Assembly: GCF_000016325.1 (NCBI RefSeq)
Contig: NC_009425.1
Coordinates: 62,001-126,000 of the forward strand
DNA length: 64,000 nucleotides
Source: Enterobacter sp. 638
Lineage (GTDB): Bacteria; Pseudomonadota; Gammaproteobacteria; Enterobacterales; Enterobacteriaceae
Direction: 5' to 3'
Shown: piece after piece, positions 1,709-36,147 of the stretch
Layout: each line of letters starts with the position of its first letter
How positions within the stretch are numbered: the first letter of the stretch is position 1
The notes under the pieces: generated by a model
What the model was told of the DNA's origin: nothing
The model's input: only the letters and a program-made list of their open reading frames with translations
Databases searched by the model: none
Made by a program: the position numbers and the translations under genes

Positions 1709-4700
1709 ATGAATATAAATCCCAGGGCGTGGCTTCGCCGCCCCCGTCCCCTGACGCAAACTCCCGGCTGGGCTCCGTTTCCGGTTAACGACCCGGCGGG
1801 TGAAATTCCTCTGCGGCCAGAGCTGTTTTCAACACCTCAGATGGAGCGTTATGGTCAAAAACTGGCGCGTACCCATAAAATTTCTCCAGATAAACTGCCT
1901 TACTACCTCCTTAAACGGCTCGGTGAAAATGAGGCCGTCATTACGCAAAACTGTTACGAACTCAATGCACGTAAAAAAACGACCATTATGCCCGCCGGGG
2001 AGTGGTTGCTGGACAATTACTACCTTATTGAGGAGCAGATCCGTATCGTCCGCCAGCACTTGCCGAAAAGTTTTGGCAAAGGGCTGCCTTCACTGTCCTC
2101 CCCACACCGTTGTCCGCGAATTTATGATATTGCCGCAGAGGCCATTGCGCATGGCGATGGGCGATGGGATATCGCCAGCCTGACCAGCTATATCACGGCT
2201 TATCAGACAGTCACGCCGCTTACGTTAGGCGAAGTCTGGGCTTTGCCGGGCATGCTCCGCCTGTCCTTAATCGAAAACCTGCGCCGCGTCAGTGCCGAAG
2301 TCGTACAAGCCCAGCAAGAACGAAGCCTGGCCGATACGTGGATAACACGAATTTTCGAATGCGCAGAGAATGATCCGGCTGATTTAATCATGGTGATCGC
2401 TGACATGGCGCGTTCACGCCCTCCGTTGAGCAGCGCATTTGTCGCTGAACTGGTACGCCGTCACCAGGGCCATGGCAACGCGCTCGCCCTACCTCTGACC
2501 TGGGTCGAACAGCGCCTGGCCGAACAGGGCGTCACAACAGAGATCCTCATTCATCGCTTCAATCAACAGCTCGCTGCCAGTCAACTCTCTGTCAGCAACA
2601 GCATCGCCGGTTTACGCTTACTGAGTGAAACTAACTGGGCTGATTTTGCTGAAACCATTAGCGTGGTGGAACAGACGTTACGGCTTGATCCCGCAGGCAT
2701 ATATTCCCGCATGCACTTTGATACCCGGGACCATTATCGTCATGTTGTTGAGCTTCTGGCCAGACAGAGCCACTTCACTGAGCCTGAGGTGGCAAACCAT
2801 GTCCTGGCACTTTCCCGGGAAACCACTCCTGGGACGCAAGCACATCATATTGGTCATTATCTGGCAGGCGAAGGACGTCAGCAGTTGGAAATTCAGCTGT
2901 TGGCTGAAACGTCCAGACTCATACGTCTGCGGCACAGTTTCAACAAAATCCCACTTCTGTCATGGCTAGGCAGCCTGAGCCTGTTGACCACGGCAACGAC
3001 AGCAGGGATATTGCACGAAACGGCGCATCAGGGAATGGGCTGGTTGTTGTTACTGTTGGCATTACCCCTTATTGTTGCTGTCAGCCAGTTAATAAGCGAT
3101 ATGCTGAGTGAGATCACGACCCGTTTCCGTATCCCTCTGCCGCTGCCACGAATGGATTTTTCGGCTGGTATCCCGGCTGATTGCGCGACTATGGTCGCTA
3201 TCCCCTGTTTACTGACCAGTCACGAAAGCATCTGCAAACTTCTCACCAGCCTGGAAGTTTGCTGGCTTGGTAATCAGGACGAAAATCTCTGTTTTGCGCT
3301 TCTTACCGATTTCGCTGATTCGCCCAGCGAAAGTACTGAAGAAAACCAGGCTCTGTTAAATCAGGCCATCACAGAGACACAGAACCTTAACCGGCGATAT
3401 CCTGGCAGCCGTCCAAACTTTTATTTGCTGCACAGAAAGCCGGAATGGAACCCTCTGCAGGGCGTCTGGATGGGTTATGAGCGCAAACGAGGAAAACTGG
3501 CTTTACTGAACGACTGGTTACGCCATCCTGCGGCACAGTTTGCCAGTGTTGAGGGCATGCCAGCAGATCAGTTACCCGGGCACATTAAATATGTCATTAC
3601 GCTGGACAGTGATACGGTTCTGCCGCGAGATACCGCGCATAAGCTGATCGCCACCATGGCTCACCCCATGAATAAGCCAGAATATGATCCTTTAAAGCTG
3701 AGGGTAGTAAAAGGTTATGGAATTCTACAGCCAGGACTGGCAGAGGAGATTCCACGCAACGGACAAGGGCGCTATGCCGCCTTGAGCAGCAGCGTACCAG
3801 GTAATAACCCCTATTCGATGATGTCTTCAGATATCTATCAGGATCTCTTTTGGGAAGGATCCTTTGTCGGCAAGGGTATTTACGATGTTGATATTTTTGT
3901 TCAGGCCACCGCAAACACCTGCCCTGAAAATCTGGTCCTCAGCCATGACTTACTCGAAGGTTGTTATGCCCGCTCCGGGCTGTTAAGCGAAGTCTTACTC
4001 TATGAGCAGTATCCGAATAATTATCTGTCGGATGTTGCTCGTCGCACGCGCTGGATACGTGGAGACTGGCAACTCCTGAACTGGCTTAGACCTCATGTCA
4101 GAAAAGCGGATGGAACCAGCGTTAAAAATCCATTATCCGTGCTGTCATGCTGGAAGTTATTCGATAATCTGCGCCGCAGCCTCGTGGCGCCTTCTTTACT
4201 TGTGCTCCTGTTTTGCGCTTTGATTTGGGTTCCCAATCCCTTTTACTGGCTAGGAGTGGTAACACTGGTTTGGCTGTTGCCAGCGGTCTTAAGTATCACC
4301 CATGATCTCTTGCGTAAACCTCCTCGCCGCTCCCTGCGTCAGCATCTGTCGCTGGTCGTCGCCAGTGCGCTGAAGCGACTTTCCCGCATCGCGCTTAATT
4401 TTGCCATACTGCCACATGAGGCCGGATACACTCTGTACGCGATTGGCGTAACGCTCTGGCGCCTGGCCATCAGTCGACGAAACCTCAGCCAATGGGCCAG
4501 TCACAATCCCGTAAGTGACCAGGTAAAAGTATCTGCTGTCCGTTTTTATCGGGCAATGTGGCTGAATGTGATAAGTGGTATAGCATTAACGGGGCTTACC
4601 TTTCAGTTTGCACCGCAGCTCCTGGCAATCGCATTACCTGTTAGCATTCTTTGGTGCCTGGCACCTCTGCTGATGAGTTGGCTGAGCCGCCAGCCTGTAC

Positions 4701-7700
4701 GCAAAGTGTTTTCCCCCAATAAGGAACAGAAAGAACTGCTGCGTCAGACAAGCCGCGAAATCTGGGCCTTTTTCGAGACGTTTGCCACGGCGAAAGAAAA
4801 CTGGCTTCCTCCTGACAATTACCAGGAAATCCCCGAGCCGACGATCGCGCATCGCACCTCTCCCACAAATATTGGGCTTTCCCTGCTTGCAAACCTGACG
4901 GCCTGGGATTTTGGCTATCTGCCTGGTGGCGAAGTATTGCAGCGCATCACCCAAACACTCGACTCGCTGGATAAAATGGAACATTTCCGGGGGCATTTGT
5001 ATAACTGGTATGACACACGCACGCTTGCCCCCCTCAGCCCTCGCTATGTTTCAAGCGTCGACAGCGGCAATATGGCTGGTCATTTACTTACACTACGTCA
5101 GGGGCTGTCCGCCATGCGTAAGCAGCCCGTATTGAACGGTGAACAGATACTGGCCGGGCTGAACGATACATTGTCTATCCTGGAAAGACACTGGGGTCAG
5201 AACACGCCTACCAGCCTGCGGCTGTTGCGTAAACAGTGTCTCAGTGCGATGTCGTTACCTCCGACACACATTTTTAGTGCTCTAAAAAAAATGAGGACGC
5301 AAAGCAACCATCTGAAGATGCTATACAATCAGGAGGATAGTTTTGTTGTGCGCTGGACCGAGCATCTCGAGCATCAGCTGGTTCAGCTTTGTCACGAGTG
5401 GACGCATCTGCTTGGCTGGTTAACGCCACTGTATAAGGATCAGACGTTACCGTCACTGAACTGGCTTGCGACGGCGACCTATTCCGGTGAAGGGACACCT
5501 ACGGCATCCGTGATAACGCAAGCCCGCCTGCGCCTGGATATAATCACCGAACTTGAACAGCGCCTGGACGACCACGCACGAATGGATTTCGCCTTTCTGT
5601 ACAGTGAAGCGACCAGCCTGCTCAGTGTCGGCTACAACTGTGACACGAATACACCCGACAAAAGCCATTACGACCTCCTCCCATCCGAAATTCGACTGAC
5701 AAGTTTTCTTGCCATCGCAACAAATCAGTTGCCGCTTAAAAGCTGGTACACCCTGGGGCGACTCTTCACAACGATTGATAATGAAACCGCGCTGATGTCA
5801 TGGAGCGGTTCAATGTTTGAATACCTGATGCCAAATCTGGTGATGCCTGTCTGGCCCGGTAGTCTTCTTGATGAAATGAGTCAGTCGGCCGTAATGCGGC
5901 AGATAAGTTGGGGAAAAGAGCGCGGCGTGCCATGGGGAGTTTCAGAGTCTGGTTACCATGCTTTTGATGTTCAGCATAACTATCAGTATCAGGCATTTGG
6001 CGTCCCTGGTCTCGGCCTTCGCCGTGGGCTGGCCGACGATATGGTCGTCGCTCCCTATGCCACACTTCTGGCACTGCCGGTCTCGCCACAAAAAGCCTGT
6101 GAGAACCTGTTCAGACTGAAAAAAACCGGTGCTCACGGTGAGTACGGTTTTTATGAAGCACTGGACTATACGCCCTCTCGCCTGGCGACCGGTCAGCTTT
6201 ATGCCGTAGTACAGTCCTGGATGGCGCATCATCAGGGAATGGCGTTTCAGGCGCTGGCTCATGTGTTGCTTGATGCCCCTATGACAGCGCGTTTCATGTC
6301 CAGCACCGCTTTCCAGTCGGCGAGCCTGCTGTTGCAGGAACGCGTGCCTGATGCCGTCGATCTATACAGCCCGCGTCGTCACTTCGAGTCTCATGAAGGG
6401 AGAGTCAAACCGGTTCGCTACGAACCGCGCATTTTCACCGCAGCGGATAGCCCGGTCCCCGAGGTTCAGCTGCTATCCAACAGCCATTACCATCTGATGA
6501 TGACTGCGGGCGGCGGGGGGTATAGTCGCTGGAATAATCTTGCCCTCACGCGCTGGCGCAGCGATACCACCCGCGATAACTGGGGGGCATTCTGCTATAT
6601 CAGCGATCCGCAAACAGGTGAGATATGGAGCAATACCTGGCTTCCCACAGGGGACGATTCGGGTGACAGCGACGAAGTGATATTTACCGATGCAGGTGCT
6701 GAATTCCGGCGAAACTTCGGGTCACTCAGCGTCAGAACACAGATCGTCGTCTCCCCGGAGGATGATATTGAACTACGGCGGGTCACACTTGTGCATCGGG
6801 GCCGCCTGCCGCGAACCCTGGAACTGACGACGTATGCCGAAGTCGTGCTCGCACCTTATGCCAGCGATCTGTCTCATCCTGCCTTCAGTAATTTGTTTAT
6901 CCAGACGGAGCTTGATCCCGATCGCGACGCCATACTCTGCCATCGTCGTCCGCGTTCGGAGCATGAAAAGAGCCCTTGCCTATTCCACATGATGGTGGTG
7001 CATGGTGATAAGCCGAAGAGCGTTTCGTTTGAGACCGACAGAGCTAAATTTCTTGGGCGTGGCCGAAGTCCTGCTGATGCAATGGCTAACAGCGAAAACG
7101 GACCGCTTAGCAACACGTCGGGGTCTGTGCTAGACCCCATACTGGCGATACGCCATGCTGTCACGCTGCAACCCGGACAGCCGATCACCATTGATATCGT
7201 TTATGGTATCAGTGAAAGCCGTCAGCAAAGCCAGACACTGCTGGAAAAATATCGTGATCATCCCATTGCTGACCGTGTTTTTGAACTGGCCTGGTCTCAC
7301 AGTCTGGTGGTGTTACGCCAGATGAATGCCAGTGAAGATGATGCCACCTTGTTTAACCGTCTCGCCAGCGCAGTACTTTATCCAAGTCAGGAATGGCGCG
7401 CAGACGGCCAGGTAATTAGCCGTAATCGGCGTGGTCAGTCCGGTTTGTGGGGCTGGGCTATTTCAGGCGATCTGCCGATTGTGCTGCTCAGTATCGCCAG
7501 AGAGGAGAGTATAGCCTCCGTTACCACCCTTATTCAGGCGCATCGCTACTGGAGACTAAAAGGGCTGGAAGTGGATCTTGTCATTCTGAATAACAGCCCC
7601 GGTGGCTACCAGCAGGTCTTGCAGGCGCAGATGATGGATTTAATTTACGCGGGTTCGGGTGCCAGCCTGCTGGACAAATCCGGCGGGATTTTTGTCCGTA

Positions 7701-10291
7701 ATGGCGAACATCTGTCTGCGGATGATAAACAGCTTTTGATGAGTGTGGCCTATCTGTATCTTGATGACCGCGCGGGTGGCATTAATGAACAGCTCAGCCT
7801 GCGAATGAATACGTCAAAAACACCGGCCAGGGCATTTATCTCGTACACCATGACCGGACGCAATCAACATACTGACTGGACTCCTGATACCAGTCAGCTG
7901 CGCCATTTCAACGGCTACGGTGGATTTTCTCAGGATGGCCGGGAGTATCAAATTGTCCTGAAGGAAAATGCGCCCACTCCGGCGCCCTGGTCCAACGTGC
8001 TGGCAAATCGCTGTATTGGCAGCGTGATCTCTGAAGCGGGGCAGGCCTATAGCTGGTATGAGAATGCCCACGAATATCGCTTAACGCCCTGGGAAAACGA
8101 TCCGGTGAGCGACCGTAGTGGTGAAGCCTTTTATTTGCGCGATGAAGAGAGCGGCGCGTTCTGGTCCCCCACTCCCTTACCAGTACGCGGGAAGGGGGAT
8201 TATCTGGCCCGTCATGGTTTCGGCTACAGCGTGTTTGCGCATCGTGAGAGTGGTATAGACACTGAGCTGACGGTGTTGGTCGCCGAAAAAGATCCGGTGA
8301 AAATTGCCATCCTGACGCTCAGTAACAACTCGGGCCGCACGCGTAAATTATCCGTCACGGGTTATGTGGAGTGGACGCTCGGGGAATCACGAACCCGTAC
8401 CGCCCCTCACATTGTGACGCATTCTGCCAGCATACCGGGTGGTTGCAGCGTGATGGCAAACAACTTTTACGGCGCAAACGGTGGCGGGCGAACTGCCTTT
8501 TTTGCCGTCAGTGGCATTCACTGCTCGCTAACCGGTGATCGCCGTGAGTTTATTGGGCGTAATGGTTCCCTGCAAAACCCTACAGCCATGAAACAGCACA
8601 GCCTTACGGGGAAAACGGGCGCCGGTCTCGATCCATGCGGGGCGCTACAGTCGATGGTCACATTAATTGATGGTGACCAGAGAACGTTTATTTTTGTTCT
8701 GGGAGCGGAAGAAAATCAGGCCCAGGCTCAGGCGACGCTTGCCCGTTATTTGAATGAAGATGCCGCGCATCAGGAGCTGAATAGGGTGCACGATTACTGG
8801 CATAGCGTGCTTGATAAAATTGTGGTAACTACCCCTGATTCCACGGTTGATTTACTGGTTAATGGCTGGATGTTGTACCAGACAATGGCTTGTCGGCTTA
8901 TGGCTCGCAGCGGTTACTACCAGTCTGGCGGCGCATTCGGTTTTCGCGATCAGCTACAGGATTCGCTGGCGCTGAGCCACGCAGCACCGGAACGGCTGCG
9001 CGAACAGATTGTGCTATGCGCCTCACGGCAATTTATTGAGGGGGATGTGCAGCACTGGTGGCATCCTCCTCACGGTAACGGCGTTCGCACTCGCTGTTCG
9101 GATGATTATCTCTGGCTCCCGCTCGCCGTATGCCACTACGTGGAGACAACGGGTGACACCGCAGTATTGGAGCAAAGTATTCCTTATCTGGAAGGCCGCC
9201 TCCTCCAGCCCGGTGAAGAATCTGTCTATGATTCTCCCGTCATCAGCAACATCGAAGAGACGTTGTGGCTGCACTGCGTAAAAGCGATTCAACATGGGTT
9301 GCGGTTTGGACAGCATGGGCTGCCACTTATGGGGGCGGGTGACTGGAATGATGGTATGAACCAGGTCGGCATTGAAGGCAGAGGCGAAAGCGTCTGGCTG
9401 GGGTTCTTCCTGTACGATATTTTACAGCGATTCGCTACGCTCGCAGAACAGCAGCAGGACGCCAGTGTCGCGTTGATGTGTCGTTCTCAGGCGCTGCAGT
9501 TGCAAAAAAATCTTGAGACCTCCGCCTGGGATGGCGAATGGTATCGGCGGGGATATTTTGATGATGGCACACCTCTGGGATCTAAAGGCTCGCAGGACTG
9601 TCGGATTGATGCCATTGCGCAAAGCTGGTCTGTGCTGTCCGGGGCCGCCAGCCCGGATCACAGCAGACGGGCCATGCAGGCTCTGGATAAGTATCTCGTG
9701 GATAGCGATGCGGGGCTCATCAAACTGCTGTCCCCTCCATTCGATAACCACGGGCCAAACCCGGGTTACATTCAGGGCTATTTACCGGGCGTGCGAGAAA
9801 ATGGTGGGCAGTATACGCATGGTGCCATCTGGGCAGTGATGGCGTTTGCCAGAATGGGCAATAAAGCGCGAGCCTGGCAACTGTGGTCAATGATAAATCC
9901 CATAAACCACACACTGAATGCTGGCGAAGTGGCAAAATATAAAGCGGAGCCGTATGTCATGAGCGCGGATGTCTACAGCGTGGAGCCACATACCGGGCGT
10001 GCAGGGTGGAGCTGGTATACCGGTTCAGCAGGTTGGGCATACCGTCTGCTAACCGAGGAACTTCTGGGAATAAAACAATACGGTACGTCCTTTACCCTAC
10101 ACGCCCAGTTTCCCGATGAATGGTCATCTTTCGGCTTAACGTATCAACATGGCTACAGCCAGTATCACATCACCGTTTCTCGTGGCGGCACGGAGTACAA
10201 GGTCTTAATGGATGGCGTCATTTTACCGGACGACAGAATTCCTCTGCTTGATGACGGTCAAAACCATACAGTTGATATCATTCAGAAGTGA
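1709..10291 (+). CDS. ndvB: cyclic beta-1,2-glucan synthase, NdvB/ChvB/Cgs family
   Basis: At 2860 residues it is essentially full length (Brucella/Agrobacterium Cgs/ChvB proteins are near 2800-2870). These inner-membrane enzymes self-glucosylate from UDP-glucose, extend a beta-1,2 chain and cyclise it, delivering a periplasmic osmoregulated glucan. Membrane segments are visible near residues 415-465, 830-870 and 950-995. The GT84 processive glycosyltransferase core lies between them, with LDSDT near residue 632, SHDLLEG near 750 and RxxRW inside RRTRWIRGDWQ near 780. The C-terminal phosphorylase-like GH94 part has GAGDWNDGMNQ near 2545 and VEPHTGRAGWSWYTGS near 2755, which set chain length. 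The reading frame is uninterrupted. Such enzymes belong mainly to Rhizobiales; enterobacteria normally make opgGH glucans, so this is acquired cargo. A perfect hairpin follows at 10305-10331. Confidence 0.93.
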   Translation: MNINPRAWLRRPRPLTQTPGWAPFPVNDPAGEIPLRPELFSTPQMERYGQKLARTHKISPDKLPYYLLKRLGENEAVITQNCYELNARKKTTIMPAGEWLLDNYYLIEEQIRIVRQHLPKSFGKGLPSLSSPHRCPRIYDIAAEAIAHGDGRWDIASLTSYITAYQTVTPLTLGEVWALPGMLRLSLIENLRRVSAEVVQAQQERSLADTWITRIFECAENDPADLIMVIADMARSRPPLSSAFVAELVRRHQGHGNALALPLTWVEQRLAEQGVTTEILIHRFNQQLAASQLSVSNSIAGLRLLSETNWADFAETISVVEQTLRLDPAGIYSRMHFDTRDHYRHVVELLARQSHFTEPEVANHVLALSRETTPGTQAHHIGHYLAGEGRQQLEIQLLAETSRLIRLRHSFNKIPLLSWLGSLSLLTTATTAGILHETAHQGMGWLLLLLALPLIVAVSQLISDMLSEITTRFRIPLPLPRMDFSAGIPADCATMVAIPCLLTSHESICKLLTSLEVCWLGNQDENLCFALLTDFADSPSESTEENQALLNQAITETQNLNRRYPGSRPNFYLLHRKPEWNPLQGVWMGYERKRGKLALLNDWLRHPAAQFASVEGMPADQLPGHIKYVITLDSDTVLPRDTAHKLIATMAHPMNKPEYDPLKLRVVKGYGILQPGLAEEIPRNGQGRYAALSSSVPGNNPYSMMSSDIYQDLFWEGSFVGKGIYDVDIFVQATANTCPENLVLSHDLLEGCYARSGLLSEVLLYEQYPNNYLSDVARRTRWIRGDWQLLNWLRPHVRKADGTSVKNPLSVLSCWKLFDNLRRSLVAPSLLVLLFCALIWVPNPFYWLGVVTLVWLLPAVLSITHDLLRKPPRRSLRQHLSLVVASALKRLSRIALNFAILPHEAGYTLYAIGVTLWRLAISRRNLSQWASHNPVSDQVKVSAVRFYRAMWLNVISGIALTGLTFQFAPQLLAIALPVSILWCLAPLLMSWLSRQPVRKVFSPNKEQKELLRQTSREIWAFFETFATAKENWLPPDNYQEIPEPTIAHRTSPTNIGLSLLANLTAWDFGYLPGGEVLQRITQTLDSLDKMEHFRGHLYNWYDTRTLAPLSPRYVSSVDSGNMAGHLLTLRQGLSAMRKQPVLNGEQILAGLNDTLSILERHWGQNTPTSLRLLRKQCLSAMSLPPTHIFSALKKMRTQSNHLKMLYNQEDSFVVRWTEHLEHQLVQLCHEWTHLLGWLTPLYKDQTLPSLNWLATATYSGEGTPTASVITQARLRLDIITELEQRLDDHARMDFAFLYSEATSLLSVGYNCDTNTPDKSHYDLLPSEIRLTSFLAIATNQLPLKSWYTLGRLFTTIDNETALMSWSGSMFEYLMPNLVMPVWPGSLLDEMSQSAVMRQISWGKERGVPWGVSESGYHAFDVQHNYQYQAFGVPGLGLRRGLADDMVVAPYATLLALPVSPQKACENLFRLKKTGAHGEYGFYEALDYTPSRLATGQLYAVVQSWMAHHQGMAFQALAHVLLDAPMTARFMSSTAFQSASLLLQERVPDAVDLYSPRRHFESHEGRVKPVRYEPRIFTAADSPVPEVQLLSNSHYHLMMTAGGGGYSRWNNLALTRWRSDTTRDNWGAFCYISDPQTGEIWSNTWLPTGDDSGDSDEVIFTDAGAEFRRNFGSLSVRTQIVVSPEDDIELRRVTLVHRGRLPRTLELTTYAEVVLAPYASDLSHPAFSNLFIQTELDPDRDAILCHRRPRSEHEKSPCLFHMMVVHGDKPKSVSFETDRAKFLGRGRSPADAMANSENGPLSNTSGSVLDPILAIRHAVTLQPGQPITIDIVYGISESRQQSQTLLEKYRDHPIADRVFELAWSHSLVVLRQMNASEDDATLFNRLASAVLYPSQEWRADGQVISRNRRGQSGLWGWAISGDLPIVLLSIAREESIASVTTLIQAHRYWRLKGLEVDLVILNNSPGGYQQVLQAQMMDLIYAGSGASLLDKSGGIFVRNGEHLSADDKQLLMSVAYLYLDDRAGGINEQLSLRMNTSKTPARAFISYTMTGRNQHTDWTPDTSQLRHFNGYGGFSQDGREYQIVLKENAPTPAPWSNVLANRCIGSVISEAGQAYSWYENAHEYRLTPWENDPVSDRSGEAFYLRDEESGAFWSPTPLPVRGKGDYLARHGFGYSVFAHRESGIDTELTVLVAEKDPVKIAILTLSNNSGRTRKLSVTGYVEWTLGESRTRTAPHIVTHSASIPGGCSVMANNFYGANGGGRTAFFAVSGIHCSLTGDRREFIGRNGSLQNPTAMKQHSLTGKTGAGLDPCGALQSMVTLIDGDQRTFIFVLGAEENQAQAQATLARYLNEDAAHQELNRVHDYWHSVLDKIVVTTPDSTVDLLVNGWMLYQTMACRLMARSGYYQSGGAFGFRDQLQDSLALSHAAPERLREQIVLCASRQFIEGDVQHWWHPPHGNGVRTRCSDDYLWLPLAVCHYVETTGDTAVLEQSIPYLEGRLLQPGEESVYDSPVISNIEETLWLHCVKAIQHGLRFGQHGLPLMGAGDWNDGMNQVGIEGRGESVWLGFFLYDILQRFATLAEQQQDASVALMCRSQALQLQKNLETSAWDGEWYRRGYFDDGTPLGSKGSQDCRIDAIAQSWSVLSGAASPDHSRRAMQALDKYLVDSDAGLIKLLSPPFDNHGPNPGYIQGYLPGVRENGGQYTHGAIWAVMAFARMGNKARAWQLWSMINPINHTLNAGEVAKYKAEPYVMSADVYSVEPHTGRAGWSWYTGSAGWAYRLLTEELLGIKQYGTSFTLHAQFPDEWSSFGLTYQHGYSQYHITVSRGGTEYKVLMDGVILPDDRIPLLDDGQNHTVDIIQK

Positions 10292-28618: not shown

Positions 28619-28858
28619 ATGGGTAGCATCAACCTGCGTATTGACGATGAACTTAAAGCGCGTTCTTACGCTGCGCTCGAAAAAATGGGTGTAACTCCCT
28701 CTGAAGCGCTTCGCCTCATGCTTGAATATATTGCTGACAATGAACGTTTGCCGTTCAAACAGACACTCCTGAGTGATGAGGATGCTGAGCTCGTGGAGAT
28801 AGTGAAAGAACGTCTTCGCAATCCTAAGCCAGTACGTGTGACGCTGGATGAGCTCTGA
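28619..28858 (+). CDS. relB: RelB/DinJ-family antitoxin
   Basis: A 79-residue protein. MGSINLRIDDELKARSYAAL is the ribbon-helix-helix DNA-binding part, with GVTPSEALRLMLEYI as its second helix. The C-terminal part (DAELVEIVKERLRNPKPVRVTLDEL) is the toxin-wrapping tail. The family neutralises RelE-type mRNA interferases and represses its own operon. AAGAGGTGTGAG precedes the ATG. Its stop overlaps the relE start (TGATG). The partner toxin carries a nonsense codon, so the antitoxin may now act alone or against toxins from other plasmids. Confidence 0.9.
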   Translation: MGSINLRIDDELKARSYAALEKMGVTPSEALRLMLEYIADNERLPFKQTLLSDEDAELVEIVKERLRNPKPVRVTLDEL

Positions 28859-29145
28859 TGGCATATTTTCTGGATTTTGACGAGCGTGCACTAAAGGAAT
28901 GGCGAAAGCTGGGCTCGACGGTACGTGAACAGTTGAAAAAGAAGCTGGCTGAAGTGCTTGAGTAACCGAGAATTGAAGCGAACAAGCTTCGGGGTATGCA
29001 TGACTGTTACAAAATTAAGCTCCGGTCTTCAGGCTATCGTCTTGTATATCAGGTCATAGACGAGAAGGTTGTCGTCTTTGTGATTTCTGTTGGGAAAAGA
29101 GAGCGCTCGGAAGTTTATAGCGAGGCGGTCAAACGCATTCTCTGA
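28858..29145 (+). pseudogene. relE: relE toxin inactivated by one nonsense codon
   Basis: The frame begins MAYFLDFDERALKEWRKLGS and is open for 95 codons except for one TAA at codon 36 (28963-28965). Beyond it the frame continues as an ordinary RelE ending: KLRGMHDCYKIKLRSSGYRL, YQVIDEKVVVFVISVGKRER and a final AVKRIL. A Ser codon (TCA) in relatives would become TAA by a single base change. The full catalytic surface (basic residues, Arg near 80, Tyr near 87) is therefore present but not translated from the normal start. Sequencing error is the alternative explanation. Confidence 0.85.
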
Positions 29146-29469
29146 AATAAAGCAGGACATCTCAGTTTCGCAGTAAAGGTGCCACTTCTGCTTTGCGTTG
29201 ACAGGAAGAAGGCTATGAAACTGCTATGGATCATTCAAGAATCGAGGCTGGGGGAAATATAATCCTTGCGTTTAACCCGGGATATTATTTGTTGCACCTT
29301 GGTTTTTGGGATACCTATCCTGATGACGAATGTGATTAGCACTAATTTTTACGACACTTTTAGAATGCCGAGCAATTCAGGTTGAAGCGAAGCACAACGT
29401 TTAGAACGCTTTATCGGTCCGCCAGACTACGTATTCAGCGGGCGTTTACTTGTTTATCTGAGGAATATC
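29146..29469. other. gap with a probable hok remnant
   Basis: GGAAGAAGGCTATGAAACTGC at about 29205-29225 matches the Shine-Dalgarno and first codons of the three hok genes. GAGGCTGGGGGAAA some 25 bp later resembles their terminator. The hok body between them is deleted. The rest, to 29455, shows nothing I can name; a CTGAGGAATATC ribosome binding site precedes the next gene. Confidence 0.45.
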
Positions 29470-31563
29470 TTGAGTAATAACACCCCTCTTTATCCGCAAC
29501 AGCTAACGGTTCATCAGGCTATGGAACTGGCGAATGCACACTGGAATGCGGGTCAGGCAGCACAGGCAGAGCAGCTTTGTTTGCGTGTTCTTCAGGTTGC
29601 CCCTTCGCAGCCCGATGCTCTTAATCTTTTAGGCTTGATGATGCATGCCTACGGCAAGATGGATCTGGCCCTCGACTACATACGTAAAGCTGGGCAGTCG
29701 CCGGGTGCACCGGCGATAGTGTTCAGCAATCTGGCCGAGCTTTGCCGCCAAAGGGGGTTATTACAGGAAGCAGAACAAGCCGCCCGGCGAGCAGTAGAAC
29801 AAGAGCCGCAACTGGCTTTGGCATGGAATAACCTTGGCATCATTTTGCAGGAGGCAGGGAAATTTAAGGCCAGCCTTGAGTGCCTGCAATACGTGGCATC
29901 GCTGCAACCAGACAATGCTGAGGTGCACAACAATCTGGCCAATACCTGGAAGCGCCTGGGTGACTTGCAACGCGCTCAGGAAAGTTACCAGCGTGCGCTG
30001 AATTTACGACCTGATTACGCAGAGGTCTACAGTAATCTCGCCTCGCTGTTAAGTGAGTTGGGATGTATTGATGAGGCTGCGGCTTCTGCCAGACAGGCAA
30101 TAGATATCAACCCGCAACTGGCTGATGCCTACCTGAATCTGGCGGATATTGAATTGTCGCGTATGCGCTACGCAGAAGCATCGCATTGGGTTAAAGCACT
30201 TCTGGAGTTTTCGCCCCGACATGCGGGGGCGCTTATCACTCTTGCCCATATCATGATAGCTAATGAGCATTATGAAGAGGCGGCCTTCGAAGCACGCAAG
30301 GCGCTGGCCATCGCCCCGGACAGGGCTAATGCGCATATGATCCTGGGTAAAGCATTGCAGGCGCTTGGGCAGTATGAAGACGCAGACAGAGCTTATAGTA
30401 AGGCAGCGGTATTACCAGGCACGGTTGCTGAAGAGGCCCTGATTGCGCGCGCGGTTTTGCTGATGGAAACCGGTGATAAGCAAGCCGCTACGGCGGCGTT
30501 TGAACAGGCCTTGAAACGTTTTCCAGATTCAGCGCGGATTGTCGCTGCGCGTTGTGACAATAAGTTCTATCGTGCCGGCGACCCTGACATTGATGTGATG
30601 GAGAGCGCATTGGTCAGCGAGCCAACGCCTCCACTTAATGAAAAAATGATGCTGCATTTTTCGCTGGGCAAAGCCTGGCTTGATGTTAGCGATTCCGAAC
30701 GCGCATTTTTTCATCTGAATCAGGGCAACGCCCTCAAGCGTGCCTCTTTTCATTACGATGCCGCTCAAACCCGTGCGTGGGTGAACAACATTGCGGAGAT
30801 TTTCACGCCAGCCTTGATGGCGCAGTTCAACAACGCGGGCACGGCTTCTGAGCGGTCGGTCTTTGTCGTCGGGATGCCTCGCTCTGGCACCACTCTGGTT
30901 GAGCAGATTCTGGCCTCACATCCCGGTGTTTACGGTGCAGGGGAGTTGCGTGCACTGGATCGGGCTGTGGCACGCGCAGGCCGATTCCCCGATGATGTAC
31001 CACGCTGGAATAATGCTGACTTTGCTCGTATTGGGACAGACTATCTGGAGCAGGTGAGTCACCTGGCACCGGAGGCATTGCGCGTGATCGACAAGCTGCC
31101 TGCGAACTTCTTTTATGCCGGACTGATTCCACTTCTTCTGCCTGGCGCGCGCATCATCCATTGCCGCCGTAACCCTGTTGATACGTGCTTATCCTGTTAC
31201 AGCAAGCTGTTTGCTGGCGAACAGACATTCGCTTATCAACTGGATGAGCTGGGTCAGTTCTACCGTGATTATGAGGCGTTGATGGCCCATTTTCGCCAGA
31301 TACTGCCAGCTGACAGCTTCATTGAAGTCGACTATGAGACTGTGGTCGACGATCTTGAAGGGCAGGCGCGGCGCCTGATTGATTTTATCGCTCTTCCCTG
31401 GGACGACGCCTGTCTGACCTTCCACGAAACTCGCCGTATCGTGCGCACGGCAAGCGTTGCCCAGGTGCGTCAGCCGATCTATACCTCCTCTAAAGGACGC
31501 TGGCAACAACATGCTGCACACCTCGGTCCCTTGTTAAAAGCACTGGGGATGGAGCAGAAATGA
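29470..31563 (+). CDS. TPR-repeat sulfotransferase-family protein
   Basis: A 697-residue cytoplasmic protein. Residues 10-340 are about nine 34-residue TPR units (for example AWNNLGIILQEAGKFKASLE, then AEVHNNLANTWKRLGDLQRA, then AEVYSNLASLLSELGCIDEA). The C-terminal domain (about 460-697) is a PAPS-dependent sulfotransferase: SVFVVGMPRSGTTLVEQILA is the 5'-phosphosulfate loop and IIHCRRNPVDTCLSCYSKLF the 3'-phosphate-binding motif. TPRs usually present a protein or peptide substrate. The start is a TTG, supported by GAGG 8 nt upstream. Its stop overlaps the next gene's start (ATGA), so the two are translated together. Together they precede an autotransporter, which may be their substrate. The actual acceptor is unknown, and a polysaccharide acceptor is possible. 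Confidence 0.85.
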   Translation: MSNNTPLYPQQLTVHQAMELANAHWNAGQAAQAEQLCLRVLQVAPSQPDALNLLGLMMHAYGKMDLALDYIRKAGQSPGAPAIVFSNLAELCRQRGLLQEAEQAARRAVEQEPQLALAWNNLGIILQEAGKFKASLECLQYVASLQPDNAEVHNNLANTWKRLGDLQRAQESYQRALNLRPDYAEVYSNLASLLSELGCIDEAAASARQAIDINPQLADAYLNLADIELSRMRYAEASHWVKALLEFSPRHAGALITLAHIMIANEHYEEAAFEARKALAIAPDRANAHMILGKALQALGQYEDADRAYSKAAVLPGTVAEEALIARAVLLMETGDKQAATAAFEQALKRFPDSARIVAARCDNKFYRAGDPDIDVMESALVSEPTPPLNEKMMLHFSLGKAWLDVSDSERAFFHLNQGNALKRASFHYDAAQTRAWVNNIAEIFTPALMAQFNNAGTASERSVFVVGMPRSGTTLVEQILASHPGVYGAGELRALDRAVARAGRFPDDVPRWNNADFARIGTDYLEQVSHLAPEALRVIDKLPANFFYAGLIPLLLPGARIIHCRRNPVDTCLSCYSKLFAGEQTFAYQLDELGQFYRDYEALMAHFRQILPADSFIEVDYETVVDDLEGQARRLIDFIALPWDDACLTFHETRRIVRTASVAQVRQPIYTSSKGRWQQHAAHLGPLLKALGMEQK

Positions 31564-32729
31564 ACCCTGAACCGACAGACAACCAAACCCTTTTCCAGCA
31601 GGTTGATGAACTTCTGAAAGCTGAACGCTGGGCACAGGCCGAAGCGGTGCTGAGTCAAGCGCTGTGCTCTGGTTCCGGGCCAATACCTTTGTGGCGTCAG
31701 CTCTATGTAGCGTACCGCCAGCAGGGAAATATCGCTGGAGCGACCCAGGTACTAGAGATGATCGTACAGGCCACCCCTGGCGACCTGCATTCGCGCTTCG
31801 ACCTGGCCGAAATGCTGTTATTGCAGGGAGAGTTCACGCGCGGCTGGCGCGAATATCGCTTCCGTTACAGGCAGGATCACACCCGCATGTTTGAGCGCCA
31901 TATCCGGCAGCCACGCTGGGAAGGGCAGTCAATTATAGGGAAGACGCTGTTCATCCACGATGAGCAAGGTTACGGTGATACCTTTCAGTTTCTTCGACTG
32001 GTGGAGCAGGCACAAATGCGAAGCGGTGCCCATGTTGTGCTGGAGGTGAACGAGGAGGCTTATAACCTGGCTCATGGCGTCAGGGGTTATCATCAGCTGA
32101 TGAAGCGAGGAACGCTGCCACCACCGTTTGATTTTCACTGTGAACTGATGAGCCTGCCAGCCGCACTCGGCCTACAACTGTCGGACCTGCCGGGGCGAGT
32201 GCCTTATCTCTTTGCCGATCCCGCGCGAGTGGAGAAATGGCGCGCCCGTCTGGCTGATCTTCCACGCCCGCTAGTGGGATTGGTGTGGGCTGGCCGTCCC
32301 ACCCATGCGAATGACAAGCACCGTTCGCTGGCGCTCGCCGATCTGGCACCGCTGGCGCAAGAGGGTATGACCTTCCTCGCGTTGCAGAAAGGACCAGCGG
32401 CAGAGCAGGCTGTTACGCCGCTTGCGGGCATGTCGCTGCTGTCGCTCAGCGATGAAATCCACGATTTTGATGATACTGCCGCCATCCTGCGAGTGATAGA
32501 CACGCTGGTCTCGGTCGACTCTTCTCCGGTTCATCTGGCCGGTGCGCTCGGATGTCCAGCCTGTGTGCTGCTGCCTTTCCAGCATGACTGGCGCTGGTTA
32601 CAACAACGCGAGGACTCTCCCTGGTATCCTGAAATGCGGCTGTTCCGCCAGCTTGCGGCAGGAGAATGGAAAACCCCGTTGCAAAACGTCGCTATCGCTT
32701 TGAAAAAATTAAAAAATAAGCCTGAGTGA
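31560..32729 (+). CDS. TPR-glycosyltransferase-like protein (GT9/GT41-like C-terminus)
   Basis: A 389-residue protein. The first 110 residues hold two or three TPR-like units ending GEFTRGWREYRFRYR, a motif common at the TPR/transferase joint of this family. The rest resembles a GT-B nucleotide-sugar domain: PLVGLVWAGRPTHANDKHRS (about 238-257) and VIDTLVSVDSSPVHLAGALG with PFQHDWRWL (about 320-350), as in ADP-heptose transferase (GT9) and TPR-linked bacterial transferases. Donor and acceptor cannot be told. It overlaps the upstream sulfotransferase gene by 4 bases and lies 185 bp upstream of the autotransporter, the position held by dedicated glycosyltransferases (Aah, TibC) next to AIDA-I and TibA. 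Confidence 0.8.
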   Translation: MNPEPTDNQTLFQQVDELLKAERWAQAEAVLSQALCSGSGPIPLWRQLYVAYRQQGNIAGATQVLEMIVQATPGDLHSRFDLAEMLLLQGEFTRGWREYRFRYRQDHTRMFERHIRQPRWEGQSIIGKTLFIHDEQGYGDTFQFLRLVEQAQMRSGAHVVLEVNEEAYNLAHGVRGYHQLMKRGTLPPPFDFHCELMSLPAALGLQLSDLPGRVPYLFADPARVEKWRARLADLPRPLVGLVWAGRPTHANDKHRSLALADLAPLAQEGMTFLALQKGPAAEQAVTPLAGMSLLSLSDEIHDFDDTAAILRVIDTLVSVDSSPVHLAGALGCPACVLLPFQHDWRWLQQREDSPWYPEMRLFRQLAAGEWKTPLQNVAIALKKLKNKPE

Positions 32730-32914
32730 TACAGGGGATAGTAATATCTCTGAGCATTCTACTGAAGATAGATATTTTACTGCCGATAACTAAAGATTAA
32801 GACTAATTACAGTACATTAATATTATTCGATTTGAGGCAGCAAACCGCTAACACCAACGCATGACTAATGCTATAAGTAAATTCTTATTAAATTATGTTA
32901 ATGCGGGTTGCTAA

Positions 32915-35734
32915 ATGTCAAAAAATATTACAAATCCAACTGCGATAGACAGACGGAAGGTGCTGGGCCTTTCAATAGGGTCAGCAATTGCGTTGCTGTC
33001 GTCCGCAGAAGTTTATTCAGCATGTATCGCTCTTGGTAATACCGCTACAGTGACTGGAACCACTGGCTGCGTTACCTGGTCTGGAGGAAATCTTACACTG
33101 ACCAATGCTGGAACACTCATTTCAACAGGTGCGGCGCCCGTAACGGCGACATCTGCAGCGGGAACATTACTCAATAACGGATTGCTAAGTGGCACATCTG
33201 CCGCTGGCGTCGAGAACACGGCTAATGCTCTTATTGTTCAGAATAACAGTACGATCATCAGTAACACCATCGGGCTTAACAATAACGGAACGATTGTATC
33301 GCTGAACAACAATGCCGGAGGAACGATTTCCGGTTCAGTTGCGGGTGTTAAGAATAACAGTTTCATCATGTCGCTCAGTAATAACAATATCATCTCCGGT
33401 GGTCTGGGCATCAACAATGGTGGCACTTTGGGCTCTCTCGCTAACAGTGGAACCCTCACCGGAACGACGACAGGAGTTTATAACTCGGGTCTCATCACAA
33501 ACTTATCCAACAGTGGCTCTCTCTCCGGCACCAGTTATGGCATCCAGTCTGATAATGGCAGTCAGATCCTCTCTTTGCAAAATACCAGCACGGGCATTAT
33601 TGAAGGTGGGACGGGCGTGTTGGTCGGCAATCTAACCCCCTCTGGCACGATCAACGTCAACACGTTAACCAATGCTGGCCAGATTTCGGGAACGACTAAC
33701 GTCGGGGTCGGCACCAGCAGCAACGGCACTATCGGGAGCTTAAATAATACGGGTACCCTCGTTGGTAGTCTGGGTGGTGTGGGCAATGCCGGCACCATCG
33801 GTTCTCTGGTCAACAGTGGTACCATCTCCAGCAGCGGTTATGCCGTTTATAACGCCGGATCCGGTACCTTTGGCCCGATCACCAACAGCGGCATGATTGC
33901 TGGTACCATTTACAATGGTGCCACCCGCAGCATGACCATTAACGGCAGCAACGATGCGACCTTCGGTACCCTGACGGGAGCCAGTGGCGGAACCGGTAGT
34001 GCGGATATCGGAATGCTCTACAGTACCAGCGCAGACCTGTTTTTTGCGTCCGGTAATCTGCTGCTTAATGACAATATTCAGGCCGGCAGCAAAACGGTGA
34101 ATAACACAGGCGCGACCTTACAGGTCAATAACATCCTCAGCATCACCGGCAACTACGTGCAGAGGGCATCTGCAGCCTTGGTAGTCGGTGTTGGCGATGT
34201 CGCAGTGAGCAACGGCGTCTCAGCCGATACCGGCTATGGACGTCTGATTGTCAGTGGTGCTGCCACCATCGACAATGGTTCAACGGTGGCACTCAAGTCA
34301 CTCAATACCTACCGCTTTGCTCCGGGCCAGCGTTATGTGGTTATTACCGCCGCCCAAAATGGCACCAATTACAATGCCAACAGCTTAAATTACCTGACTT
34401 CCGCCTATGAGGGTGTGACAAGCGGATCTGTGGTTGACAGTGGCAACACGAGCAGTCTGGTGGTTTCTCTGGGTGCAAAAGCGACAGATTCGGGTACAGG
34501 TACGCCTGGAGTGCCGACAAATCCGGGTACAGGTACGCCTGGAGTGCCGACAAATCCGGGTACAGGTACGCCTGGAGGAGGGGAGACTCCAGTCACGCCG
34601 GGCTTTGCAACTACGGGCAATGCGATATCTTCTCTGAGCGGATTGAAGCAGTACACCGGGATTGCTCCAGGACTGCTTGATCTCTATAACGCCTCACTGG
34701 CCATTGATTCTACTCGTGACGCGAACAAAGTAGGTGAACAGCTCTCTCCCGTACAGAACAGCAGCGCCAGCAATGTAGCCTCAGTGGCGACATTTGACGC
34801 CGTCGGTGTGGTCGGTCAGCGAGTTGATTCAGTGCGTCTGGCGCATACACAAGGTATGAGCGGGGTGGCAACCGGTGATGATCCTACCGACTGGGCTGCA
34901 TGGGGGCAGGTATTTGGCGGCCATGCTAACCAGGGTATGGTAGATAGTGTCAGTGGGTATAAAGCGAACTACAGCGGGCTGGTACTGGGTGTTGACCGGG
35001 CTATGGGAGATGCATGGCGGGTCGGTGGTGCACTGACTTACAGTTACACCTCGGTCCATGGCGAAGACAATCTTTCCGGTAATAAGACGGGAGTTGATTC
35101 TTACGGTCTGATTGGCTATGCCAGTTATACCGGTGACCCATGGTACGTGAACCTGTCTGCCAGCGTCACTCAGCAACGCTACGACACTTCACGTAAAGTT
35201 AATATGACGGGTTATTCCGATTCGGCTTGGGGCAAATTTAACGGTCAGCAGTACGTGACCAAGGCAGAATTCGGTTATCCGCTGGCCGTGGCGGATACCA
35301 CCACGCTGACGCCTTTGGCTAACCTGAGTTACAGTTATCAGACACTTGATAGCTATAAAGAAAGCAGCGGAAATGGTTCTGCTCTTTCGGTGGAAAGTAG
35401 CCACAATAACGCGTTCCGTAGTGGATTGGGCGCGAAACTGGAGAAATCATTCCAGACCGGTATTGGCGACATTGTACCGTATGTTCAGGCAGTGTGGACG
35501 CATCAGTATGACTCCAAGCAGAGCACCACGAATGCTAGCTATGCTGCTGATACTATTGGAGAAACAAGCTTCACAACCTTCGGTGCGTCGCCCGTTGAAG
35601 ACACTGCTGATCTCTCCTTGGGTACCACCGTTCTAAATTCAGATACGCTCAGTGTGACCGCGCGTTATACCGCGCAGTTCGGTGAACAGTATCAGGGGCA
35701 GACAGTCAGTCTGCAGGTACGTAAGCTGTTTTGA
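32915..35734 (+). CDS. autotransporter adhesin-like protein (type Va secretion)
   Basis: 939 residues. The N-terminus has an unusual signal: IDRRKVLGLSIGSAIALLSS, a twin-Arg pair (13-14) before the hydrophobic core, with likely cleavage near AEVYSA-C. The passenger (about 37-520) is built of short repeats rich in Asn, Gly, Ser and Thr (LNNAGTI, LANSGTLTGT and similar), predicting a right-handed beta-helix. A Gly/Thr/Pro linker with three repeat units (about 525-560) follows. An alpha-helical segment (GQRVDSVRLAHTQGMSG) leads into the 12-stranded beta-barrel (about 658-939), which ends in the outer-membrane signature RKLF with terminal Phe. The Ser/Thr wealth and the two upstream TPR enzymes suggest a glycosylated and perhaps sulfated surface protein; this is inference. 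The start codon lacks a strong Shine-Dalgarno. Confidence 0.9.
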   Translation: MSKNITNPTAIDRRKVLGLSIGSAIALLSSAEVYSACIALGNTATVTGTTGCVTWSGGNLTLTNAGTLISTGAAPVTATSAAGTLLNNGLLSGTSAAGVENTANALIVQNNSTIISNTIGLNNNGTIVSLNNNAGGTISGSVAGVKNNSFIMSLSNNNIISGGLGINNGGTLGSLANSGTLTGTTTGVYNSGLITNLSNSGSLSGTSYGIQSDNGSQILSLQNTSTGIIEGGTGVLVGNLTPSGTINVNTLTNAGQISGTTNVGVGTSSNGTIGSLNNTGTLVGSLGGVGNAGTIGSLVNSGTISSSGYAVYNAGSGTFGPITNSGMIAGTIYNGATRSMTINGSNDATFGTLTGASGGTGSADIGMLYSTSADLFFASGNLLLNDNIQAGSKTVNNTGATLQVNNILSITGNYVQRASAALVVGVGDVAVSNGVSADTGYGRLIVSGAATIDNGSTVALKSLNTYRFAPGQRYVVITAAQNGTNYNANSLNYLTSAYEGVTSGSVVDSGNTSSLVVSLGAKATDSGTGTPGVPTNPGTGTPGVPTNPGTGTPGGGETPVTPGFATTGNAISSLSGLKQYTGIAPGLLDLYNASLAIDSTRDANKVGEQLSPVQNSSASNVASVATFDAVGVVGQRVDSVRLAHTQGMSGVATGDDPTDWAAWGQVFGGHANQGMVDSVSGYKANYSGLVLGVDRAMGDAWRVGGALTYSYTSVHGEDNLSGNKTGVDSYGLIGYASYTGDPWYVNLSASVTQQRYDTSRKVNMTGYSDSAWGKFNGQQYVTKAEFGYPLAVADTTTLTPLANLSYSYQTLDSYKESSGNGSALSVESSHNNAFRSGLGAKLEKSFQTGIGDIVPYVQAVWTHQYDSKQSTTNASYAADTIGETSFTTFGASPVEDTADLSLGTTVLNSDTLSVTARYTAQFGEQYQGQTVSLQVRKLF
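34490..34590 (+). repeat. 33-bp tandem repeat in the autotransporter linker
   Basis: A 33-bp unit encoding GTGTPGVPTNP occurs twice in full and a third time in part (GTGTPGGGE). The copies are identical at the DNA level, which implies recent slippage. Unit number could vary the distance between passenger and barrel without breaking the frame. Confidence 0.85.
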
Positions 35735-35749
35735 TACAACCAAATATAA

Positions 35750-35779
35750 CCCAGCTCCTGAAAGGCCGCAGGAGCTGGG
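35750..35779 (+). terminator. hairpin after the autotransporter gene
   Basis: CCCAGCTCCTG and CAGGAGCTGGG form a perfect 11-bp stem around AAAGGCCG, 15 bases after the stop. No U-tract follows, so it may stabilise the 3' end rather than terminate alone. Confidence 0.6.
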
Positions 35780-35809: not shown

Positions 35810-36147
35810 CAAGTGGTGAACCTGCGTGACATGGGTCTATTCAAGCTCGCTCTTGTGCTGCGCTGGAAAATATAGGGATCACACTTTTTGAAGTGCTGCG
35901 CCTTATACTTAACTATATTGCCGACAATGAACGTCTTCTTTTCAAGAAAATGCTGCTCAACGATAAAGATGCTGAACTCGGTGAGATAGTGAAAGAGCGA
36001 ATACGTAATCCTAAGCCTGTTCGTGTGATTCTGGACGACCTCTGAGGGCGTATTTTCTGGATTTGTCGAGTGGACACTGAAGGGATGCCATAAACCTTAC
36101 GTGACCGTAAGAGAGCAACTCAAAAAGAAGCTGGCAGATATGCTCAA
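35810..36147 (+). pseudogene. decayed second relBE
   Basis: 35830-36045 aligns along its length with the relB gene at 28619-28858: LRLILNYIADNERLL..., then DAELGEIVKERIRNPKPVR, then the stop TGA at 36043-36045. It has a stop after GCTGGAAAATA near 35875 and a damaged start. A relE start (GCGTATTTTCTGGATTT) follows, with frameshifts, and ends abruptly at about 36147, where it is fused to a truncated leading-region gene. Confidence 0.8.

Follow-up and report, generated by a model that had tools for sequence, protein, structure and literature searches.

The question raised by the locus described here is what two transferases, each fused to a TPR domain, do upstream of an autotransporter gene. 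The locus occupies positions 29470 to 35734 of the window (the whole stretch of 64,000 nucleotides that was analysed) and belongs to pENT638-1, a plasmid of the endophytic bacterium Enterobacter sp. 638, whose genome of 4,676,461 bases in all includes, according to passages of PMC2869309, this plasmid (157,749 bases) and a chromosome of 4,518,712 bases. ST, GT and AT denote the TPR-sulfotransferase, the TPR-glycosyltransferase and the autotransporter, respectively, and the trio denotes ST-GT-AT. We conclude that the trio is probably an autotransporter-modification system with a putative chemistry, and that the locus is likely a conserved adhesin-modification cassette.

The locus is already in print. 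Passages of PMC2869309 list Ent638_4265 to Ent638_4267 as a haemagglutinin autotransporter (Ent638_4267, our AT) and two adjoining TPR genes, and tie them to flanking RelBE systems as stabilisers; by gene order, ST is presumably Ent638_4265 and GT Ent638_4266. The enzyme functions of the TPR genes are not in print in that source as far as its passages go, which mention these genes without enzyme function; a search of its main text for the word “sulfotransferase” gave 0 occurrences, so that such a function was not considered there.

Genes of the locus and their flanks

The features of the trio and of its flanks are all on the forward (+) strand. A ribosome-binding-site-like GAGGA (29460 to 29464), read from the sequence, stands five bases 5' of the TTG start of ST (29470 to 31563, 697 aa), which is composed of a TPR superhelix (residues about 14-350) and a Sulfotransfer_3 catalytic domain (about 462-697). 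The junction of ST and GT (31560 to 32729, 389 aa) is an ATGA overlap with the GT start inside it (starts and stops were checked), by which the two genes, as read from the DNA, are translationally coupled, and 185 bp separate the GT stop from the AT start. AT (32915 to 35734, 939 aa) is a classical autotransporter with a signal, a Ser/Thr/Asn/Gly-rich passenger, a linker and a barrel; three tandem units of 33 nt (11 aa, T/G/P-rich; 34482 to 34580) lie between passenger and barrel, and a perfect hairpin with 11-bp arms and without a T-run (35750 to 35779, read from the sequence) follows directly 3' of the AT stop. The three open reading frames, the ATGA overlap and the PRSGTT and RNPVDTCLS motifs of ST had been reported in a preliminary description of this DNA, and all of them are present.

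The trio is flanked by a 225-nt direct repeat (76 % identity between the arms), whose arms are two relB-type copies 7,187 bp apart (28653 to 28877 and 35840 to 36064); at the equivalent places of locus L002, relB is annotated for the upstream and RelB/DinJ for the downstream arm. An in-frame stop interrupts the upstream relE-like frame (from 28858) early, and no intact relE was apparent by eye after the downstream copy, which makes the idea of RelBE systems as stabilisers look weak. Elsewhere in the window, an ORF of 2,860 aa (1709 to 10291) is probably, by size and place only, the ndvB-type beta-glucan gene of PMC2869309.

In Pfam, ST gave many TPR matches plus Sulfotransfer_3 (PF13469, E 7.3e-45). 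We take PRSGTT (30877 to 30894, residues 470-475) to be a 5'-phosphosulfate-binding motif and RNPVDTCLS (31168 to 31194, residues 567-575) to be a 3'-phosphate-binding-type motif. R471 of the former is kept in 72 of 73 aligned ST rows, and R567, D571 and S575 of the latter are kept in all 73. R471, E492 and K542 align with the catalytic R78/E99/K158 of TPST2, each being present in 72 of the 73 rows, and their spacings (21 and 59) are the same as those of the 8w5z chain and TPST2; judged by this alignment, which stops short of the catalytic Ser position (S285 of TPST2), ST keeps the catalytic Arg/Glu/Lys of protein-tyrosine sulfotransferases. The best-scoring of 16 PDB matches by sequence (E up to 1) was the polyketide-synthase sulfotransferase 4gox (2.3e-8), ahead of the TPST matches 8w5z (2.1e-7), 3ap1 (4.3e-6) and 5wri (2.4e-5); one match is named only “Sulfotransferase”, two are uncharacterised, and none is a carbohydrate sulfotransferase by name. 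The Foldseek list for ST was headed by OGT and SPINDLY chains and was filled by matches of the TPR part, and it is therefore no test of the catalytic domain.

The kept catalytic triad and the APS kinase genes near some ST genes speak for the early reading of ST as a putative PAPS-dependent sulfotransferase. Passages of PMC2869309 suggest another role, with both TPR proteins as chaperones or scaffolds for the adhesin; catalysis would then be unimportant. The near-invariance of the catalytic residues and the co-occurrence of APS kinase at some loci make this very improbable.

GT matched TPR_19 and TPR_14 and no glycosyltransferase family in Pfam. Its predicted structure (mean pLDDT 90.5) has a short TPR domain of TPR-type helices (residues 8-111) and a GT-B type domain of heptosyltransferase fold (about 112-389), for which GT9 is nearest in fold comparison. 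In a 67-row alignment, C194 is kept in 99 % and every other cysteine in 36 % or less, and with this one conserved Cys a four-cysteine iron finger is absent.

The AT barrel (last 300 residues, 34832 to 35731, located with a home-made 300-position profile) matched PF03797 at residues 662-919 (5.1e-56), and the repeat-rich passenger gave no Pfam match outside the barrel. In the first 649 residues of AT, S, T and N account for 12.5, 12.9 and 10.8 %, respectively. The signal (32915 to 33022) has a twin-arginine-like RRK[VA]LG motif common to the nearest relatives, which was found in 16 of the 22 best AT matches (P0241-P0262) and in none of P0263-P0284.

Recurrence of the trio and neighbourhood of ST

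The trio was found at 99.9 % identity on a Lelliottia amnigena plasmid, in diverged form on a Kluyvera ascorbata plasmid and, in Erwinia rhapontici, on a contig of 955 kb (L004); it thus recurs in Kluyvera and Erwinia, and also in Pseudomonas. Such a recurrence in other genomes had been named in the preliminary description as support for its reading. Because DNA similarity starts and ends at the edges of the trio in Kluyvera (29457 to 35736) and Erwinia (29445 to 35735), the trio is a discrete cassette. No match to the ST-GT DNA was found in 5,426 E. coli genomes. Deducing synteny from matching longest-contig numbers was abandoned, as one trio suggested in this way was too long for the 5.2-kb contig concerned.

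A census of ST relatives, uneven in its coverage, gave matches in 19 of 398 genomes of the phylum (1e-80), 6 of 274 of the class (1e-100), 67 of 297 of the order that includes Thalassospira marina (1e-80), 6 of 399 of the order around the genome of L008 (1e-100, none above 41 % identity) and 5 of 199 of Pseudomonas (1e-120), the window genome being counted where it belongs. In Enterobacterales 3 of 394 genomes matched at 1e-80; identity is 32-33 % for two of these, and the only close match is that of Enterobacter sp. 638. The system may be called enterobacterial for this genome, but full-length ST relatives are rare in the order. Scanning genome contigs with a single protein gave 11 loci, four of them close. 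Close ST relatives also turned up under the names Herbaspirillum, Pandoraea and Paraburkholderia, and their loci stand outside the neighbourhood counts.

For these counts, 26 loci were classed as close, namely L002-L005 and the 22 census loci whose full-length ST matched at 1e-180 or better, and 38, a part of the weaker ST matches, as distant, the boundary having been set only after the neighbourhood maps were seen. Partners within 10 kb of ST were counted on a domain-based map, as an earlier ORF-length map had lost some GT genes (e.g., that of L070). At the close loci an AT barrel was present in 19 of 26 (one being a 111-residue remnant, L117), GT in 20 (all within 1 kb), an alpha/beta hydrolase in 16, IalB in six and APS kinase in two; the corresponding numbers at the 38 distant loci are three for AT barrels, two for GT, four for the hydrolase and five for APS kinase, with three TPS-type proteins. 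Because hydrolase and APS kinase genes lie within 10 kb of close ST genes, “self-contained”, as the trio had been called, is too strong, and the module that recurs extends beyond the three genes.

Among the seven close loci without AT, L082 and L083 contain a filamentous adhesin of LktA type, L073 and L081 are on contigs that end just upstream of ST, and L071, L072 and L076 have neither AT nor filamentous adhesin, the flanks of the latter two being cut short. When only scorable census loci with close ST were considered, an AT barrel was found within 10 kb in 15 of 20, where 0.5 would be expected (P about 1e-21 under independence). These loci are not all independent, however: one is the window, two Pseudomonas gingeri genomes had been encountered ahead of the census, and leaving these three out gives 12 of 17. 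The remaining five are in G857, G1027 (one of its two), G163, G903 and G859, with flanks cut by contig ends in G1027 and G163. Since the block recurs in other genera and the proximity of ST and AT exceeds expectation, we consider the arrangement to be more than chance.

Model-free clustering of neighbour ORFs (24 close and 37 distant loci, the latter without L109) gave AT in 17 close and 5 distant loci, the hydrolase in 15 and 4, an AraC-type regulator (by Pfam) in 6 and 0, and IalB in 4 and 0; GT was not counted there, having been merged into the TPR cluster of ST. No polysaccharide-synthesis family was seen among neighbour clusters present in at least three loci, mostly by eye with few Pfam checks. 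The module hydrolase has a lipoprotein-like start (by eye) and belongs to Hydrolase_4 in L005 and to no Pfam family in L071. In six loci (L070, L071, L072, L075, L077, and L078; Pfam on L071 and L078 only), an IalB-type protein lies directly upstream of ST, with or without AT.

APS kinase makes the sulfate donor. Its gene (PF01583 in all cases) is present within 10 kb of ST in seven of 63 distinct loci (L005, L120, L088, L090, L121, L133, and L140); with one or two copies per genome, the estimated expectation is under 1 % of loci. The longest ORFs of APS kinase and hydrolase overlap in L005, L088 and L120. Distant ST genes also adjoin two-partner-type proteins (L132 and L133 with Pfam TPS; L086 with ESPR by Pfam and TPS only by a profile built from L132 and L133) and ESPR proteins (L088, and L087 just under the Pfam cut-off). 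The common factor of ST loci is a large exported protein and not one barrel type.

Acceptor of the two enzymes

The domains, catalytic residues, folds, conserved linkage and occurrence of ST without GT are observed, and on balance we believe that ST and GT both act on the AT passenger. The two enzymes do not always occur together: in Pseudomonas costantinii, two P. gingeri genomes and G1430 (with an AT remnant), ST adjoins AT and no GT relative exists genome-wide at E 1e-10. These four Pseudomonas genomes show that ST does not need this GT, and direct protein sulfation is therefore favoured over sulfation of the sugar added by GT. In this latter pathway, GT would put a sugar on the passenger and ST, dependent on GT, would sulfate that sugar to give a sulfated glycoprotein. 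The closeness of GT to ST (within 1 kb in 20 of 26 close loci, with translational coupling in the window) and the TPR domains in both would fit it, but the four genomes speak against it unless another glycosyltransferase replaces GT, and so do the nearest relatives of ST, which are polyketide-synthase and protein-tyrosine sulfotransferases with no named carbohydrate sulfotransferase among the 16 PDB matches; we regard it as rather unlikely.

Pseudomonas genome G1381 has two loci, one (L116) with ST-GT-AT as in the window and the other (L120) with AT-ST-GT-hydrolase-APS kinase. Between L116 and the window, identity is 74 % for the ST catalytic part, 74 % for GT, 56 % for the passenger and only 47 % for the barrel, and the L116 barrel is closer to other Pseudomonas barrels (55-58 %). 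The simplest reading of these identities would be one event in which the passenger travelled with the enzymes while the barrel was replaced by another. Between the window AT and an unlinked chromosomal AT of Enterobacter sp. 638, the barrel is 54 % and the passenger only 36 % identical.

The resemblance of the window passenger to that of L116 argues against a different acceptor, according to which ST and GT would modify a surface polysaccharide, a lipid or other exported proteins, AT being a mere neighbour in a shared surface regulon. Wide occurrence of the transferases without AT, which the preliminary description had named as evidence against its link, was indeed found for the wider ST family: ST matches are common (67 of 297 genomes in one order), 35 of the 38 distant loci have no barrel, G163 holds a close ST with no AT barrel found genome-wide, and the IalB-ST loci L071 and L072 have no AT in the stretch examined. 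GT relatives are also many in some genomes (18 matches in G163 and nine in G841), Enterobacter sp. 638 having one genome-wide, on the plasmid. Polysaccharide loci, the example given there, are another matter, with no such cluster seen (mostly by eye) among those in at least three loci; the AT proximity in 15 of 20 loci and the two-partner-type adhesins adjoining ST also stand against a different acceptor, which we consider unlikely for the trio, while the broader ST family has other substrates.

Several observations count against modification of the passenger, namely the five of 20 close loci without and the three of 38 distant loci with an AT barrel, the 185-bp gap before AT, and the following. 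Distance correlations over 14 linked loci do not favour the passenger: ST distances did not track it (rho 0.62) better than the barrel (rho 0.73), and the correlation of GT with the passenger is weak (rho 0.11, 11 loci). The first 650 residues of AT contain 16 Tyr, 12 of which are shared by 70 % or more of 13 relatives, and these passenger tyrosines have few acidic neighbours, in contrast with the acidic context of Tyr at preferred animal TPST sites given in passages of PMC9372746. Related ATs without linked ST are present in genomes that also hold linked ones.

The idea that ST marks one AT clade was dropped, as linked ATs are not one clade in the AT tree (8 label changes against a shuffled mean of 15.2, with the linked AT of L005 entered as unlinked). 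In some Pseudomonas genomes there are additional ATs whose barrels are nearly identical and whose passengers differ (loci L120, L175, L005, L147, L150, L185, and L187), which suggests barrel homogenisation or passenger swapping. On the host chromosome (L189, G000:C2:3688251-3692205), a hydrolase 51 % identical to the module hydrolase, which is absent from the plasmid trio, lies divergent from a same-family AT (3689287 to 3692205), and no ST or GT was seen beside this pair. Because of this divergent hydrolase homologue, we speculate that the chromosomal AT may be a second client of the plasmid enzymes.

Returning to modification of the passenger, we propose, with somewhat more confidence than doubt, that block 29470-35734 would be a horizontally moving cassette that makes a surface adhesin decorated after translation. 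Both enzymes would act in the cytoplasm: the TPR-GT would add a sugar to the passenger, a heptose-like donor being the best guess from the predicted fold, and the TPR-ST would move sulfate from PAPS onto passenger hydroxyl groups, each enzyme gripping the passenger by its TPR domain as OGT does its substrate; the modified passenger would then be exported and displayed by its own barrel. In this scheme we infer the passenger as acceptor, the donor sugar, the acceptor residues, the order and timing of the steps, and a role in plant-surface adhesion.

More tentatively, the trio could exemplify a pathway, widespread in bacteria, that sulfates adhesin proteins of type V, both autotransporters and two-partner filaments, and in which an OGT-like TPR arm would feed the passenger to a TPST-like ST, with a companion GT, a hydrolase and, in some operons, an own APS kinase. 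If this is true, the adhesins coating the cell surface would be sulfated and glycosylated and could imitate, or attach to, sulfated ligands of the host. With a TPST-like enzyme, GT, type V adhesins and a supply of PAPS combined in several Proteobacteria groups, protein sulfation would become a more general strategy of bacterial surface modification.

Comparison with known systems

To our knowledge, bacterial protein sulfation is established only for RaxX. In the open-licence literature searched, no title or abstract start dealt with a link between sulfotransferase and autotransporter or with sulfation of type V proteins; passages of PMC10932419 concern unrelated aryl-sulfate sulfotransferases, and TPST is sparse in bacteria according to passages of PMC9372746. 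With the BAHT systems (TibC/TibA and Aah/AIDA-I), as described in passages of PMC4358343, GT shares a GT-B heptosyltransferase-like catalytic fold, but it has TPR helices in place of the N-terminal beta-barrel of TibC and one conserved Cys in place of the four-cysteine iron finger, and the trio differs from these systems by its second enzyme, ST.

With TPST1/2 and bacterial RaxST, as far as described in passages of PMC5562738 and PMC9372746, ST shares PRSGTT, the catalytic Arg/Glu/Lys and their spacing, and PAPS is expected to be its donor too; RaxX is exported, as is the putative acceptor of ST. The differences are the large TPR arm of ST and a type V adhesin instead of a short peptide. OGT resembles ST in having a TPR superhelix fused to a protein-modifying transferase, whereas the catalytic domains differ: that of ST is a sulfotransferase, and that of GT is closest to GT9. 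Similar pairings in other bacteria suggest that surface proteins are decorated in a way that is so far little known.
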